64,000 nt of DNA. Origin: Synechococcus sp. SP2 MAG (GTDB lineage: Bacteria > Cyanobacteriota > Cyanobacteriia > PCC-6307 > Cyanobiaceae). Where the stretch lies: positions 3,223 through 67,222 of the forward strand of contig JAVBIX010000036.1 of assembly GCA_030756895.1 (NCBI GenBank). Reading direction: 5' to 3'. Position 1 is the stretch's first letter. Every line of letters starts with the position of its first letter. This document shows positions 4,078 to 14,678 of the stretch, in pieces. Below the pieces are notes generated by a model. The model saw only the letters and a program-made list of their open reading frames with translations, did not search any database and was not told the DNA's origin. Both the position numbers and the translations under genes were made by a program.

Positions 4078-6176
4078 TGAGCTGAAGCCACCAGCCTGAG
4101 TTGATCACGCACCGAGTCAACATGCTGCACGTTGATCAACAGGCCCTCGCCTGGTTCTGAATCTCTAGGGCATTCAGCGGCAACGTCCATGGCGAGGTCG
4201 TCAATTCGCACCAGTCCAAGCTGATCCTGAGGCCGCAACCAACGCAAGAACTGAGCAGCCCACTGCTCCTTGCGATGGTGTTCAAACCAAACTTGCTGCC
4301 AGTGTCGTTGATCTTCTCGGGAAATACCAATGCCTTCTCGCACTGCTGCATCAAAGTCACTCAAGAGAGCTTGCAGTGCATCACGGTCGAGCGGAACTTC
4401 GCCACTGTTTTCTTGACTGAGTTGGGCTTGGAATTGCCGCTGAACAACGAGATCGCCATAGCGGCGAATGGGGGATGTGGCTTGGGCATAGGAGGCAAGT
4501 CCCAAGCTGAAGTGTGCGGCAGGTTGGGTTCCCATCAATCCGCGACTAAGACAGCGCTTAATGGCGGCGAATCGTACGGCTCCATCTGGCAGTGCTTCCA
4601 ATTCAGAGCTGGGGGGGAGGTCAGCCGGAAGCTGGCTACGGAACGGCAAAGCCAGGTCATGCACTTCCGCAATTCGGGCCACCACGGCACCCGCCAAAAT
4701 CATCGCTTCAGCCACCATTTGCCTTGACCTACCAGGTTCACTGACCTCCAGAGATGGCTGACCATCTCGACAACGAATCCGGCCTTCTGGAAGGTCCATG
4801 AGAAGGGCCCCATTGCGAACTCGGCAGTCACGCCTTCGGCTGAGAAGCGCATCTAATTCTGCTAAGTCGGTGTCTTCTGGGGGTGCCAATTCGATCAACT
4901 CGTCGGCGTCTTCGTAGCTGAGTCGATAGGTGGGTTGCACCCAGCTGCGTTGGATACCGTGATCTCCGATTTCACCGTCGCTTGTGAGCTCAGCCCAGAT
5001 GCTCCAGGCAGCAGTTCGCATCCGTGCTCGCAAACTGAAAGGCCCCGTCGATAAGCAATCTGGAAACATAGGCAGATTGCCTTTCGCTAAGTAGAGGCTG
5101 CTACCGCGACGTCGGGCTTCGAGGTCGAGGGCTGAGTCTTGATCAATTAATCGCCCAGGGTCAGCGATGTGAATCCAGAGTCTTTGCGTGCCATCCTCGC
5201 GACGTTCCAGCGCGATCCCGTCATCAATATCTCGCGTGTCTTCATCGTCGATCGTGACGCAGCGCTGCTGGCAAAGATCGATGCGCTCGGAGTCACCGGG
5301 GCGTTCGCTCGTGTTGAGCTCCACTAAGCGTTCAGCTTCCTCGAGCAGAGCAGGGCTAAATCCTGATGACCAGGTTGTGCCGGCCATCGATGCCAGTTGA
5401 TGCGGGTCCCAAAGGCCGAGATCCACCAAAAGAAGGCGAAGGTCTGCCCGGTCTTGATCAAGACGTAGACCCACCAGGCTTTGCTGAACCACCCGGTCAA
5501 GTTGTGCGAATTCGAGGGACCCTGAAACCACTTCCTTGAGCTGTTCGAGTCTGTCGCCAAGAGCTGGGGGAAGGCTTTGCAGATCAAGCTGTTGTCGGGC
5601 GCTCAGCAGTTTTTTCCACCTCTGTTCTATTTGCTGTTCAAGAGCTTTGAGCCGCTGTTGTCGGCGTAGCGGTTTGAGTTCGGCTGCCGAACGAGCTTTG
5701 ATTTGATCCTGCTTGTAACGGAACCAAAGTTGGGGGCCCATCAAGGCCAACCAACACAGAGCTAATTGGCTTGGATTGGTACCTCCACAGACGAGATCAC
5801 TAAAAAAGTCAATCTCAATGGTCTCATCTGATTCCAGAAGCAAGAGCCATGCCGCGCCCCAACTGCGACGATCGAGACAAGAAAGATGGAGTTGCTCGGC
5901 TTTGAGATGCCATGGAGAAGCCCCCAGCCCATCGGGAAGCTCAGCTCCAGATGGCAGGGGGCAAATGAGATCCAATTGCCGCTGGGGTAATACAACGGAT
6001 TTGCGATCAAATCCAAGCTTCAAGCGCGCTTTGCTGCCTTGAAGAGATTCGACGACAGCGAGTTGGTTCCCCTTCGACTCTTGGACGCCGACAAGATCTC
6101 CTGGTTGGAGAGAGGACGAAGCCAGTGGATCAGCCTTCTGGGTTAACGAAGGGAAGCAACGCCACAATGCGTGCAC
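4074..6176 (-). CDS. Ribonuclease II/R family exoribonuclease (RNB domain)
   Basis: This is a 3'-5' exoribonuclease of the RNase II/R family, 700 residues long. The catalytic RNB core is recognisable around residues 305-345, with clustered aspartates ([16 protein letters not shown]) that coordinate Mg2+. Further conserved segments are [28 protein letters not shown] and [14 protein letters not shown]. The N-terminus contains a CSD/KOW-like segment ([20 protein letters not shown]). The GTG start lies inside rpsR, giving a 47-nt overlap; a TTG three codons downstream is an alternative. It follows rpmG-rpsR on the same strand, so it is probably cotranscribed and may be translationally coupled. 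Whether it acts as RNase II or RNase R cannot be decided here. Confidence 0.93.
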
Positions 6177-10540: not shown

Positions 10541-10620
10541 TGCAAAGGCGTAACACCAATCGCTGCAACTGCATGCGAAGCGATCGATAGCTCTAGACTC
10601 ATTCAAGCTTGCCAGCTGAC

Positions 10621-11115
10621 ATGAGCGTTGTTCGGGATCTGATTCTCAAAGCAGATGACGATCTGCGTTACCCCAGCAGCGGTGAACTGCGATCAATGGT
10701 TGATTTTCTCAGCCAGGGTTCGATTCGTTTATCTGTTGTTCGAAGTCTCACAGAGAACGAGAAGAAAATCGTCGATGAATCAGCTAAACAGCTGTTTTCA
10801 CGCAAACCCGAATACGTAGCTCCTGGAGGCAACGCTTTTGGTCAGAAGCAACGCGCCCAGTGCTTGCGTGACTACAGCTGGTATTTGCGCCTTGTGACCT
10901 ATGGAGTTCTTGCCGGAAGTACTGAGCTCATCCAACAGATAGGTCTTGTGGGCGCCCGTGAGATGTACAACAGTCTTGGGGTCCCGATGCCTGGAATGGT
11001 TGAAGCCATGCGCTGCATGAGAGAGGCCTCCCTGACACTGCTTTCTGAAGACCAACAAGCTCTTGCAGCCCCCTATTTCGACTACCTCATTCAAGGAATG
11101 CAGACCTCGACATAA
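10621..11115 (+). CDS. apcD: Allophycocyanin-B alpha chain (phycobilisome terminal emitter)
   Basis: ApcD replaces one ApcA in the phycobilisome core and passes excitation to photosystems as a red-shifted terminal emitter. The 164-residue protein begins MSVVRDLILKADDDLRYPSSG. The chromophore Cys lies in QCLRDYSWYLRLVTYGVLAG near residue 80, and the C-terminus reads APYFDYLIQGM. The sequence LRYPSSGELRSMVDFL and the phrase YNSLGVPMPGMVEA fit ApcD better than ApcA or ApcB. The ORF track starts four codons upstream at TTG; the ATG at 10621 fits the family. A strong terminator follows. This gene is the best marker of a phycobilisome-bearing cyanobacterium in the window. Confidence 0.93.
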   Translation: MSVVRDLILKADDDLRYPSSGELRSMVDFLSQGSIRLSVVRSLTENEKKIVDESAKQLFSRKPEYVAPGGNAFGQKQRAQCLRDYSWYLRLVTYGVLAGSTELIQQIGLVGAREMYNSLGVPMPGMVEAMRCMREASLTLLSEDQQALAAPYFDYLIQGMQTST

Positions 11116-11136
11116 ACGGCTTTTTTTATTCCATAG

Positions 11137-11159
11137 CCGCCTGAAAGGGCGGTTTTTTT
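11137..11159 (+). terminator. Rho-independent terminator of apcD
   Basis: A perfect 5-bp stem (ccgcc/ggcgg) with a 6-nt loop (tgaaag) is followed directly by seven T residues. It lies 21 nt after the apcD stop and points in the same direction. A second T-rich run (11121-11127) precedes it. Confidence 0.9.
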
Positions 11160-11190
11160 ATGCCAACGCCATCAAGACGTAGTTGCATAA

Positions 11191-11248
11191 GTCTCACTTG
11201 AGACAAATTATGGGTCTCGCTATTCATCTCACCTGCGACTTGTGAGAT
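11191..11248. repeat. GTCTC-type palindrome patch 1
   Basis: A perfect GTCTC-ACTT-GAGAC palindrome lies at 11191-11204. GTCTC recurs at 11214, and ATCTC follows 12 bp later at 11226. ATCTCAC (11226-11232) and GTGAGAT (11242-11248) form a second 7-bp inverted repeat. This arrangement looks like operator half-sites for a dimeric or oligomeric DNA-binding protein. No binding protein is demonstrated. Confidence 0.6.
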
Positions 11249-11382
11249 GGCAGAGGGCGTGCATTTTGGCCATGAGGTTCTTGAGTGGCAGAGCCATGCT
11301 GTATCGCGTGAATGAAGCTAAGGGTTTCTGCATCAAGACAGGCAACTCTTAGCCGTGAAGACATAAAAGCTTAGTCCTAGTT

Positions 11383-11420
11383 GTCTTGGGTGAGACTTAT
11401 CATGATTCTCATAAAGAGAC
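11383..11420. repeat. GTCTC-type palindrome patch 2
   Basis: GTCTT-GGGT-GAGAC at 11383-11396 matches the 14-bp pattern of patch 1 with one mismatch. TTCTC-ATAAA-GAGAC follows at 11406-11420, with a 5-bp spacer. The two exact GAGAC pentamers start 24 bp apart, twice the 12-bp spacing seen in patch 3. Confidence 0.5.
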
Positions 11421-11799
11421 TCGTATAAGAAGAGTGCGTCTACTCATTTGGCGCTCGAGGGCCTACCCCAGTGTTTGGGTTTCAAAAATGTTGGACAGGG
11501 TCAAAGAGTTGTCTAAGGCTGAGTGGCTTCGCGTGTGCTTGCGTCACTGTGTCTACAGCAGGTACGCAAGCTCTAAAAATGCTGCTACGACTTGTGTTTG
11601 TATTGGCCAAGAATCACTTGGACATTCGATTGTCCGACTTGGACAGGCTGTAGACGATCAACTTGTTGCTCATCGAAGCGAAATGGATCTTTAGGCCTGG
11701 ATGGTCTATTGGTTTTTGTTGGCTCAATGAATGAGGAATTGGGAAGGCTTGCATTTAAAACAATGGAAAAATGAGTTCATAACAACAAACTAATCCTGC

Positions 11800-11877
11800 G
11801 TCTCGCATGAGACTAGTACTGAGACTAGTGAAGAGACTCAAATGAGATATTTGCTTCTTATGCATCTCACTCGTGTC
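11800..11877. repeat. GTCTC palindrome plus 12-bp direct repeats (patch 3)
   Basis: A perfect GTCTC-GCAT-GAGAC palindrome occupies 11800-11813. Its right arm begins three consecutive 12-bp units: GAGACTAGTACT (11809), GAGACTAGTGAA (11821) and GAGACTCAAATG (11833), followed by GAGAT at 11844. ATCTC-ACTC-GTGTC at 11864-11877 is a further imperfect 14-bp site. The patch ends about 40 bp from the stop codon of the RHH/J gene. Confidence 0.65.
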
Positions 11878-11914
11878 TTGTCTTAAGTCTTATCCTGGAA
11901 CGCATTTGGGATTG

Positions 11915-12991
11915 CTACGACTCTTTATCTCTGTAGAGCTCTCGCAGCATCTGATAGGCCTCATTCAGTCGTCTCATTCCATCCGTAGAGCCACCGGCAT
12001 CTGGATGGGCTTCGATCGCTTTGTTCTTGTATGCGTCTCGGATGGAACGCAAAGTGAGGGATGCTCCAGCTTGCGTGGGCAGATCTAGTAATCGCAGCGC
12101 ACCATGCAGGGTCATGGTGGATTCCAAGGTTTCAAATGACGTCACACGCCGACTCCGTTTGAAGCGGTTCACAAAGCGACGAATCAAAGTTGGGATGCGA
12201 TCCTCCACGTTGCCTGCGGCAAATGGATCTTCGAGAACTGCAGCAGCGACAATCACATGTTCAAATTTTGGAGTCTGCACGGACCAATCAGTGCAGACAT
12301 CCTGCATCGATTGGTTGACCTGGCTCCAGGTGAAGGTGCGCCCCTCGCTTCCGTCTAATTGGGGCCAGATATCTCGGGCCATCCAGAGCATCACAGCTTC
12401 AAGAACCGTTGCCCCCGGCGCTGATCCATAAAGACTGGTCCAATGATCGATCGCTTTATTGCAGCAAGCAGTGAGGTGATCGAAGCCCACCACTGGTACA
12501 AAGGGACTGTCACGTCCTTCTTCTGGTGTTTGAGGCTGTTGCAGGCTGGTACGGATGGCCTGCGTGCGGCTTCGCACAAATCCAGGTAAGTCGATGCCGC
12601 GACTTTTTGTGCTGCTCTCCCTCGGCTGACTGGTGTCGGGTGTGAGCAACGATGTTGTGTCTTGCTCCTTAGGGTCTTGACTACGGCGAACCAAGACGAT
12701 TGCCCGGTCTTCGTTGTACGAGGGTTCCGTTGGTCGCTGGTCTCGCTTTAATTCAATGGCATTAGGCGAGGTCGCGACTGATAAGTCCGTTGGATCCTCG
12801 TTGACTCCTTTGTTGAGAAGGTCGCCTACACCTGATTCGAAGTCTGTCTCAAAATCTGTCTCATCAGTCCAGATTTCTTCCAGCAATCGCGTTAAGCAAT
12901 CGCCTCTGGCCCTAATGCACCACTCTTTCTTCAGCTCGTCGATGCGATCAACGAGATGATCAGGAAGTTCAAGTGTGATCCGACGCCCCAT
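11915..12991 (-). CDS. Ribbon-helix-helix / J-domain fusion protein (unnamed)
   Basis: The 358-residue protein begins MGRRITLELPDHLVDRIDELK, a beta strand plus helix pattern typical of ribbon-helix-helix DNA-binding proteins. A second helix follows (RARGDCLTRLLEEIW). Residues from about 50 to 140 are acidic and low in complexity. A middle region (about 165-290) is rich in aromatic residues and unrecognised. The last 50 residues form a J-domain-like helix pair around the HPD motif (KNKAIEAHPDAGGSTDGMRRLNEAYQML). J domains recruit DnaK. The ATG at 12991 is chosen because the RHH strand starts there; the ORF track extends 39 codons into the DUF3370 gene. The order of DNA-binding and J domains is unusual. 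Role unknown; DNA binding is inferred. Confidence 0.75.
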   Translation of the reverse strand: MGRRITLELPDHLVDRIDELKKEWCIRARGDCLTRLLEEIWTDETDFETDFESGVGDLLNKGVNEDPTDLSVATSPNAIELKRDQRPTEPSYNEDRAIVLVRRSQDPKEQDTTSLLTPDTSQPRESSTKSRGIDLPGFVRSRTQAIRTSLQQPQTPEEGRDSPFVPVVGFDHLTACCNKAIDHWTSLYGSAPGATVLEAVMLWMARDIWPQLDGSEGRTFTWSQVNQSMQDVCTDWSVQTPKFEHVIVAAAVLEDPFAAGNVEDRIPTLIRRFVNRFKRSRRVTSFETLESTMTLHGALRLLDLPTQAGASLTLRSIRDAYKNKAIEAHPDAGGSTDGMRRLNEAYQMLRELYRDKES

Positions 12992-13031
12992 CAGCCTGCC
13001 GCGATGATCTGAGTAAAACGATGCGCGAAGC

Positions 13032-14678
13032 TTATCGACCTTGCAGTCGGCGCAGCCAATCCTGTTGAGCCTTAATGGCATCGCGATAGCGTTGCTCCAA
13101 CGAGTCATTAACGCGCTGAGGCATGATCATCGCTGGTGGCAACTGATTGGCGCCAGTTGATGGCGCGGCAATTGTCGTCGGCTGAATTCTTGGGGCTGGT
13201 TTCGGATAGGTTCGAGGTGTGGCTTCATGCTGAGGAGATGTGATGATCGTCTTTGGCTCGTTGTCGTTCGCCTGAAGGGGATCTGGTTGTGCATTGATCG
13301 CCGGTGGAGGCGTTGGCGGAACAACTTTGCGTTTTTTTGCCGCTGCTTCAGCTTTCCTTGCTGCTTCTAGTAACTCTTCACGACGACGAAGCAAGGCGAG
13401 CTGGGTCACTGGAACCACGCTAAGCAAGTGGCCTGGCGTGGCATCAGCTGGATAAACAACGCTCACTGTGACGGGATTGACAACGTTTGCCTGAACATTG
13501 ATTTGGCCGATGGGCAGGCTCTGTCCTGATTTCATCCCAACATGAACTTCTCGATAGCCTTCCGCACTTTTGATTCCGATCGATCCTCTGAATGCTGTGA
13601 AAGGTTTCCGACCGGATGCAACTGGATGGCTTAAAACCAACTCATGAGACCCAATTCCAGAGAGATTCAGCTCAACATCAAAGCGCACTCCGTAGGTACC
13701 AACATTGTTAAGAGCGGAATCAATCATTCGTGTTGATAATTGATTAACCTGTACATCTTTTGTCCCAAAGTGATGTCTGCGAGTACTTGTTAAAGGAATA
13801 TGTAATGCACTTTGCGTTAGGTCATGGTTGATTGAGGCCTTATATTCATCGCCGAGAGCAACACCAGCCACTCTTGAAAAGACTTTTCCTGTACGAATCT
13901 CATTGAGACGGTTTAAATAAATGCGCCCTGGTGCTAGTTTTTTGCTGTCAAGAACAGCGATAAGCTTTTGCTCTTGGTTTGTTTCCTCTGCTGCTACAAC
14001 AGCAAGTTGGAATTGCCCGTCACTGCGACCTCTCAACAGACCGTTCATAATTCCTCTGGCAGGAAGAACGGAACTCACAATCACTTTGCGACTTCGAGGT
14101 GGAATCGTTATTTGCTGTGGGAGCTTGCGATCAAGTTCTCCTCTCAGCATTTGTACTGCGGTTGCGTCACCCGGTCCTGTATTCCAAGGCCGTCTACCGA
14201 GGGGCTTTACCCCCATTAAACGATTGGGGTGATAAGGAGCTTCGAAACTGTTTTTAACAGAGCCTCTTTTGAATTTAAGGGTCACAGGCTTGCTGCCTGG
14301 GTTGATAGCAATTGCTGCAACCGTTAGCAATCCTCGTGCTCGACGACCACCTAATTTACTGCTGTCTTGAGGGTAATACTTATGGTGCATATGCAACCCG
14401 AATTCGCCATTAAATGTGAATTCAGGATTCCTTAACGGCTGGTTATTTTCCGCTGCAATCGCTGAACCTGGCGCTGTATTGACGAGAATCCCAGGTCCTT
14501 TGACAATTTCGGGCTGGTTGGAATGAAGGACTGGAACGTTATTAAAAGTGCCATTGAGAGCACGAGCTCTCTGCCCAGCCATCAAAGGCACGTAGGCGTG
14601 CGCTTTCTCCACGACACCAAAATCGTATGTCGCAATTGCGACACTGATTAGGACCAGTTTTGATAATCGGTGAGACAC
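13032..14678 (-). CDS. DUF3370-like secreted protein
   Basis: The 548-residue product starts with GTG (MSHRLSKLVLISVAIATYDF). A signal peptide probably ends after AHA in VEKAHAYVPLMAGQRARALNG. The next 400 residues resemble the cyanobacterial DUF3370 family: NNVPVLHSNQPEIVKGPGIL, then FNGEFGLHMHHKYYP and IAINPGSKPVTLKF. The C-terminus has a charged helical segment (ARKAEAAAKKRK) and a roughly 90-residue proline-rich tail ending QDWLRRLQGR. The protein is likely periplasmic or outer-envelope; its function is unknown. Its stop is 40 nt upstream of the RHH/J start on the same strand, so the two may be cotranscribed. Confidence 0.75.
   Translation of the reverse strand: MSHRLSKLVLISVAIATYDFGVVEKAHAYVPLMAGQRARALNGTFNNVPVLHSNQPEIVKGPGILVNTAPGSAIAAENNQPLRNPEFTFNGEFGLHMHHKYYPQDSSKLGGRRARGLLTVAAIAINPGSKPVTLKFKRGSVKNSFEAPYHPNRLMGVKPLGRRPWNTGPGDATAVQMLRGELDRKLPQQITIPPRSRKVIVSSVLPARGIMNGLLRGRSDGQFQLAVVAAEETNQEQKLIAVLDSKKLAPGRIYLNRLNEIRTGKVFSRVAGVALGDEYKASINHDLTQSALHIPLTSTRRHHFGTKDVQVNQLSTRMIDSALNNVGTYGVRFDVELNLSGIGSHELVLSHPVASGRKPFTAFRGSIGIKSAEGYREVHVGMKSGQSLPIGQINVQANVVNPVTVSVVYPADATPGHLLSVVPVTQLALLRRREELLEAARKAEAAAKKRKVVPPTPPPAINAQPDPLQANDNEPKTIITSPQHEATPRTYPKPAPRIQPTTIAAPSTGANQLPPAMIMPQRVNDSLEQRYRDAIKAQQDWLRRLQGR

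Follow-up and report, generated by a model that had tools for sequence, protein, structure and literature searches.

What is a dense cluster of GTCTC/GAGAC motifs doing between the 3' ends of two convergent genes in a picocyanobacterial genome? The region in question lies within a stretch of 64,000 nucleotides from the Synechococcus sp. SP2 MAG (the window), between the end of apcD (11115, plus strand) and that of a gene that we call RHH-J (11915, minus strand). The initial annotation, which described this convergent setting correctly, had counted nine exact pentamers, and we recovered all of them (positions 11191, 11200, 11214, 11392, 11416, 11800, 11809, 11821, and 11833, against 1.2 expected). 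It had also held the cluster to be unusually dense, and nine per 700 bp is indeed the highest count in the window, which has a mean of 1.19. The proposed palindrome GTCTC-N4-GAGAC was borne out within the window, where it occurs solely at 11191 and 11800, but not beyond it: its genome-wide count is unremarkable (5, versus 3 for a reversed control pattern). Because this count is near background, the exact palindrome was rejected as the functional unit. We read GTCTC/GAGAC instead as the local form of an AGACT/AGTCT motif with a variable preceding base. Comparison with relatives places the cluster on one flank of a conserved DNA site with three components, which marine Synechococcus and Prochlorococcus have once per chromosome. 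Comparative sequence analysis makes it probable, on balance, that this locus is an FtsK-independent, dif-like chromosome resolution site at the replication terminus, equipped with accessory arrays to which RHH-J probably binds.

A palindromic core with flanking arrays

A DNA search of relatives revealed that the best-conserved part of the region is not the motif cluster but an imperfect palindrome between its two halves (Table 1). The palindrome is a short, sharply bounded non-coding block that is present in 21 of the 24 other genomes of the genus and is single-copy wherever found, with up to 3 mismatches allowed. A version of it occurs in the DNA beside RHH-J homologues in all 30 family loci scanned (29 of 30 by a stricter pattern). 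Among 151 Cyanobiaceae genomes, a degenerate core pattern has a single location in each of 95, whereas its reversed control turns up in no more than 6. In HL Prochlorococcus the core has diverged yet is recognizable (GTACTGTCTTAAAGACAGTAC). These Prochlorococcus loci also contain a conserved small open reading frame of ~82 codons, MI(S/N)FLSLLLSSVLWVQVPQWSDDWSKC..., which lies inside the site and ends at the core.

Table 1. Coordinates of the features discussed (window positions unless a locus is named)
Feature	Position	Strand	Remark
apcD, convergent neighbor	10609..11115	+	Phycobilisome match, E 9e-59
Intrinsic terminator of apcD	11135..11160	+	context
Left AGACT/AGTCT array, outer cluster	11190..11250	.	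AGTCTC, GAGAC, GTCTC, then degenerate ATCTCAC...GTGAGAT
Left array, inner cluster	11381..11421	.	GAGAC 11392 and 11416 (24 bp apart), near matches
33-bp imperfect palindrome CTTGCGTCACTG-TGTCTACAG-CAGGTACGCAAG, center 11554	11538..11570	+	candidate dif-like recombination core
TGGAC repeat 1	11619..11623	+	+65 from core center
TGGAC repeat 2	11640..11644	+	+86 from core center; +75 in most Prochlorococcus-like loci
Right array	11799..11890	.	GTCTC 11800; GAGAC 11809, 11821, 11833; GAGAT 11844 (11-12-bp phase); then near matches
RHH-J gene	11915..12991	-	N-terminal ribbon-helix-helix, C-terminal J domain with HPD; candidate array-binding accessory protein
HL Prochlorococcus ~82-aa ORF	L143 10120-10368	-	
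HL Prochlorococcus ~82-aa ORF	L404 about 4958-5206		
HL Prochlorococcus ~82-aa ORF	L497 9007-9255	-	

The core consists of two arms of ~13 bp around a center of 5 to 9 bp, and the arms vary in step between genomes (GTAAC..GTTAC, GTACC..GGTAC, GCG..CGC, and GAG..CTC). In an arm alignment of 468 cells, 87.6% pair and 35 double changes are seen, versus 17 after shuffling; the covariation score is 0.207, versus 0.04 to 0.08 when the register is slid. The core can be folded as an RNA hairpin (−19 kcal/mol with a z score of about −3 here, and −22.7 for a representative core), and the initial annotation had allowed for a structured RNA. This idea was not supported, as the arms change symmetrically with almost no G-U intermediates, a pattern more in keeping with protein binding at a dyad-symmetric site than with an RNA stem, and an Rfam scan gave no match at the gathering level, the sole match being a chance snoRNA (E 4.4).

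Several simpler readings of the core were rejected. A tRNA or tmRNA was dismissed after a scan for both, and a 102-aa open reading frame spanning the core is not open in relatives. The core is not needed as a terminator because apcD has its own, and it lacks a U-tract; a second, weak match to the terminator consensus (11692-11708) lies away from the core. We found no mobile element integrated at the core.

On both sides, the core is flanked by AGACT/AGTCT sites, located ~50 to 350 bp to the left and ~200 to 400 bp to the right. This is the strongest k-mer among 52 related loci (393 observed versus 122 expected), and, whichever way the paired sites are oriented, their spacings cluster around 11-12, 23-24, and 35 bp. 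Taken singly, 32 of 49 loci show a significant excess over first-order shuffles. For a combined set of 6-mers, the locus is the top 800-bp stretch of the window in the source genome (14 versus a mean of 1.5), and the corresponding locus ranks first in two other genomes, G007 (12 versus a mean of 1.1; 555 kb sampled) and G109 (18 versus a mean of 1.3; 640 kb sampled). The run of GTCTC/GAGAC motifs from 11800 to 11844 in the window is one such phased array. In homologous intervals, which the initial annotation had suggested comparing, the array with its 11-12-bp phase is kept throughout the family; the exact pentamer is unexceptional at the G007 locus.

The third element is a pair of TGGAC repeats on the RHH-J side of the core. 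When 49 loci were aligned to the direction of the RHH-J gene, each had on average 1.84 copies of TGGAC, always in one orientation and always in the bin from +50 to +100. The first copy starts 63 to 66 bp from the core center in nearly all loci, and the second follows 11 or about 21 bp beyond it. Genome G186, for example, has them at +64 and +75, with AGGAC in the second position.

Terminus position and candidate proteins

In 17 of 20 complete genomes with exact sizes, the distance between dnaN and the core is ~0.44 to 0.50 of the circle (for G186, the position of dnaN is assumed). The most informative chromosome is the asymmetric one of G109 (2,410,873 bp), which has its core at 802.3 kb, or 0.333 of the circle, and here both the GC and the AT skew change sign at ~781 to 801 kb, within about 10 to 20 kb of the core. 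Between 480 and 700 kb of the same chromosome (G109:C1), in the short replichore, the skew is reversed over ~220 kb, which suggests a recent inversion. The skew of G007 switches at about 1256 kb, past the core by ~80 kb. Of two high-GC genomes, G138 changes AT skew 150 to 190 kb from the core, and G092 has a skew too noisy to inform. The position at the terminus is partly inherited synteny; pheT remains a close neighbor of the core in Prochlorococcus.

Genome G186 (1,657,990 bp, the size of Prochlorococcus MED4) has the palindrome at ~829,214 and the RHH-J gene at 829,627-830,625. Another line of work has drawn attention to the corresponding part of the MED4 chromosome. In the passages of Mansky et al. 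(PMC10913375) considered here, MED4 vesicle reads are enriched in a ter window of 826 to 832 kb and their highest peak is reported "directly at the dif site," a site that these passages cite from earlier literature and name without a sequence. The palindrome, at 829.2 kb, falls inside the vesicle-enriched window given in those passages.

RHH-J adjoins the core wherever checked and is the sole conserved gene beside it in all these genomes. The two co-occur in 75 of 95 genomes versus 0 of 20; the genomes compared are non-independent, and several among the 20 that were missed carry variants of the pattern. The N-terminus of RHH-J resembles a ribbon-helix-helix domain by weak NikR/CopG profile matches and by a beta-alpha-alpha arrangement in a low-confidence model (pLDDT 58). 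As the Pfam model RHH_1 matches RHH-J with an E value of only 0.33, the assignment is the sum of several weak signals; a MatP profile gave no match, and sensible fold matches of the predicted structure came from the J domain alone. MetJ, another ribbon-helix-helix protein, recognizes AGAC half-sites through a similar beta-strand. RHH-J probably starts with the ATG at 12991. The mechanically called reading frame is ~39 codons too long (12992-13108, minus strand), for relatives carry a stop codon within this upstream extension. No phage homologue of RHH-J was found.

The complete HL Prochlorococcus genome G249 is a natural test of the need for RHH-J. There, the gene has decayed into a pseudogene that has lost an internal segment (L497 8125-9346, G249:C1), yet the core, a TGGAC-type pair, and the phased arrays are all kept. 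Hence, either RHH-J is not strictly essential for the site or its loss was recent.

Nearly every genome of the family (142 of 151, and 94 of the 95 good ones) has, next to hemH, a gene for a tyrosine recombinase of ~390 aa. The catalytic residues R247, K274, R339, H362, and Y371 of this enzyme are invariant, and in G006 and G010 PF00589 matches no other protein. The enzyme weakly resembles XerS and XerA, the best NCBIfam match being XerS (weak, E 5e-4), and its gene is unlinked to the core. An extra N-terminal region of ~85 aa with a conserved LRxExRGxxLxLRG motif (G000:C49:37660-38838, L137) is not recognized by Pfam and might be an arm-type DNA-binding domain. Genus g24 (G047, G101, G128, G150, G168, and G183) retains the recombinase; the core was undetected in all 6 genomes and RHH-J in the three searched and listed, and the resolution site of this genus may have diverged or moved. 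FtsK (PF01580) was absent from all nine Cyanobiaceae genomes searched, with positive controls. Among cyanobacteria, FtsK has so far been noted only from Anabaena (review, PMC7766704).

A proposed resolution reaction and its rivals

How might these elements work together? We hypothesize that the 33-bp palindrome is the binding site of a dedicated tyrosine recombinase, for which the XerS/XerA-like enzyme encoded beside hemH is the best candidate, and that this enzyme would recombine the two copies of the core in a chromosome dimer. Licensing of the reaction by FtsK is unlikely, since FtsK was not found in these genomes. The phased arrays and the TGGAC pair could instead serve as accessory sequences, comparable to those of plasmid cer/psi, which would fold the two sites into a synapse permitting resolution only. 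RHH-J is the most likely protein to bind the AGACT arrays, and its J domain could recruit DnaK for remodeling.

The initial annotation had also suggested an operator array or a centromere- or nucleoid-like site, with binding of the adjacent RHH protein to be tested. This is a good lead, as a phased array is present and flanks a fixed point with RHH-J as a constant neighbor, but the central core and the TGGAC pair had been missed. The strongest competitor to dimer resolution is a role in terminus organization: RHH-J could bind the arrays, with the core as a nucleation site, and organize the terminus or tether it to the division machinery in the manner of MatP/matS or a partition system, and no recombination would take place. 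The constant association of RHH-J with the core, the location at the terminus, and the 12-bp phasing of short sites, which would suit cooperative binding of a ribbon-helix-helix protein, are all compatible with such a role. We nevertheless regard it as rather unlikely, for the sites are confined to one locus of ~700 bp, whereas matS sites are spread over the terminus domain; two of the five genomic copies of GTCTC-N4-GAGAC are at this locus, and array density peaks here alone. Moreover, the core and the TGGAC pair differ from the array motif and are rigidly spaced, and the site of G249 persists in spite of the decay of RHH-J.

Other readings give the palindrome itself a different task. With its inverted repeat of ~30 bp and a flanking element of fixed polarity, our locus, which is also at the terminus, resembles the general layout of B. 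subtilis terminators; an RTP/Tus-like protein could bind the dyad-symmetric core and halt replication forks. Fork traps, however, normally comprise several oppositely oriented sites, and each genome has the core at just one location. We identified no Tus/RTP-like partner, and the symmetry of the arms is better suited to a symmetric reaction than to polar blocking, which makes a fork trap improbable. Still less credence is due to a local regulatory region, with operators or a hairpin RNA (or both) controlling RHH-J or its neighbors. An adjoining gene for a ribbon-helix-helix protein and a core that can fold as a hairpin speak for it, but both genes have their 3' ends at this region, no sigma-70-like promoter was detected there, and the site persists while the neighboring gene order shifts. 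The separate apcD terminator, the missing U-tract, the lack of an Rfam family, and the near absence of G-U intermediates in the arms weigh against it as well. Finally, the core has the shape of a recombinase site and could be an attachment site for an integrated element, or what is left of one. We give this very little weight: the core is found in one place per genome and is vertically conserved over many genera, the 131 bp around it gave no plasmid match and one marginal 30-bp phage match (E 0.1), and RHH-J has no phage homologue.

Resemblance to known systems and significance

If the locus does resolve chromosome dimers, its nearest relatives are to be sought among sites for Xer-type recombinases. 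Like dif, it has two inverted arms (~11 to 13 bp in dif/Xer systems, ~13 bp here) around a small center, which measures 5 to 9 bp here, compared with 6 to 8 bp in dif sites and 11 bp in difSL (PMC5357621). With both XerCD/dif and the archaeal XerA/dif it shares a single-copy dyad site at the terminus and a conserved housekeeping tyrosine recombinase; XerA has been described as FtsK independent (PMC5357621). The core bears no strong likeness to the classical 28-bp dif consensus when the two are compared by eye. We set the locus apart from XerCD/dif because that system requires FtsK, which was not found here, and because recombination at our core is something that we infer. It further differs in having one recombinase, flanking arrays with a TGGAC pair, and an adjoining accessory-type gene. 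XerS/difSL of streptococci is similar in its single, longer recombinase (356 aa for XerS, ~390 aa here), its site of ~31 to 33 bp, and its enlarged center. Unlike our locus, which adjoins RHH-J, difSL adjoins the recombinase gene, and XerS still needs FtsK.

By its layout, the locus seems nearest in function to cer/psi, whose accessory sequences and proteins restrict the topology to resolution (PMC5357621). Both combine a core with ~200 to 300 bp of accessory sequence containing repeated putative protein-binding sites, and our locus probably does without FtsK, as cer/psi does. In contrast to cer/psi with PepA, ArgR, or ArcA, our locus is chromosomal and at the terminus, has arrays on both sides, and has RHH-J as its candidate accessory protein. 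The resemblance to MatP/matS extends to a ribbon-helix-helix protein (by weak signals here), short palindromic sites, and terminus location; the concentration at one locus, the J domain of RHH-J, and the motif GTCTC-N4-GAGAC/AGACT, which is not the matS consensus, distinguish the two.

Kono et al. 2011 (PMC3025954) could not predict dif by profile searches in any of the cyanobacteria tested, and the lack of a predicted dif in this phylum is restated in a more recent genome paper (PMC6416890). We found no prior description of the site or of the RHH-J protein in the open-access literature searched. A more far-reaching proposal, which we put forward tentatively, is that the family possesses a new dimer resolution machine, in which an FtsK-independent dif served by a single recombinase would be combined, at the chromosome terminus, with accessory arrays in phase and with RHH-J as a dedicated protein joining a DNA-binding domain to an Hsp40 domain, and that the same site would be the focus of the terminus DNA exported in vesicles by Prochlorococcus.

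In summary, picocyanobacteria, which are among Earth's most abundant phototrophs, seem to lack FtsK, and their way of resolving chromosome dimers can now be tested directly, starting from a defined site and from candidates for the recombinase and the accessory protein. The site may also offer a molecular explanation for the terminus peak of Prochlorococcus vesicle DNA described in the passages cited above (PMC10913375).
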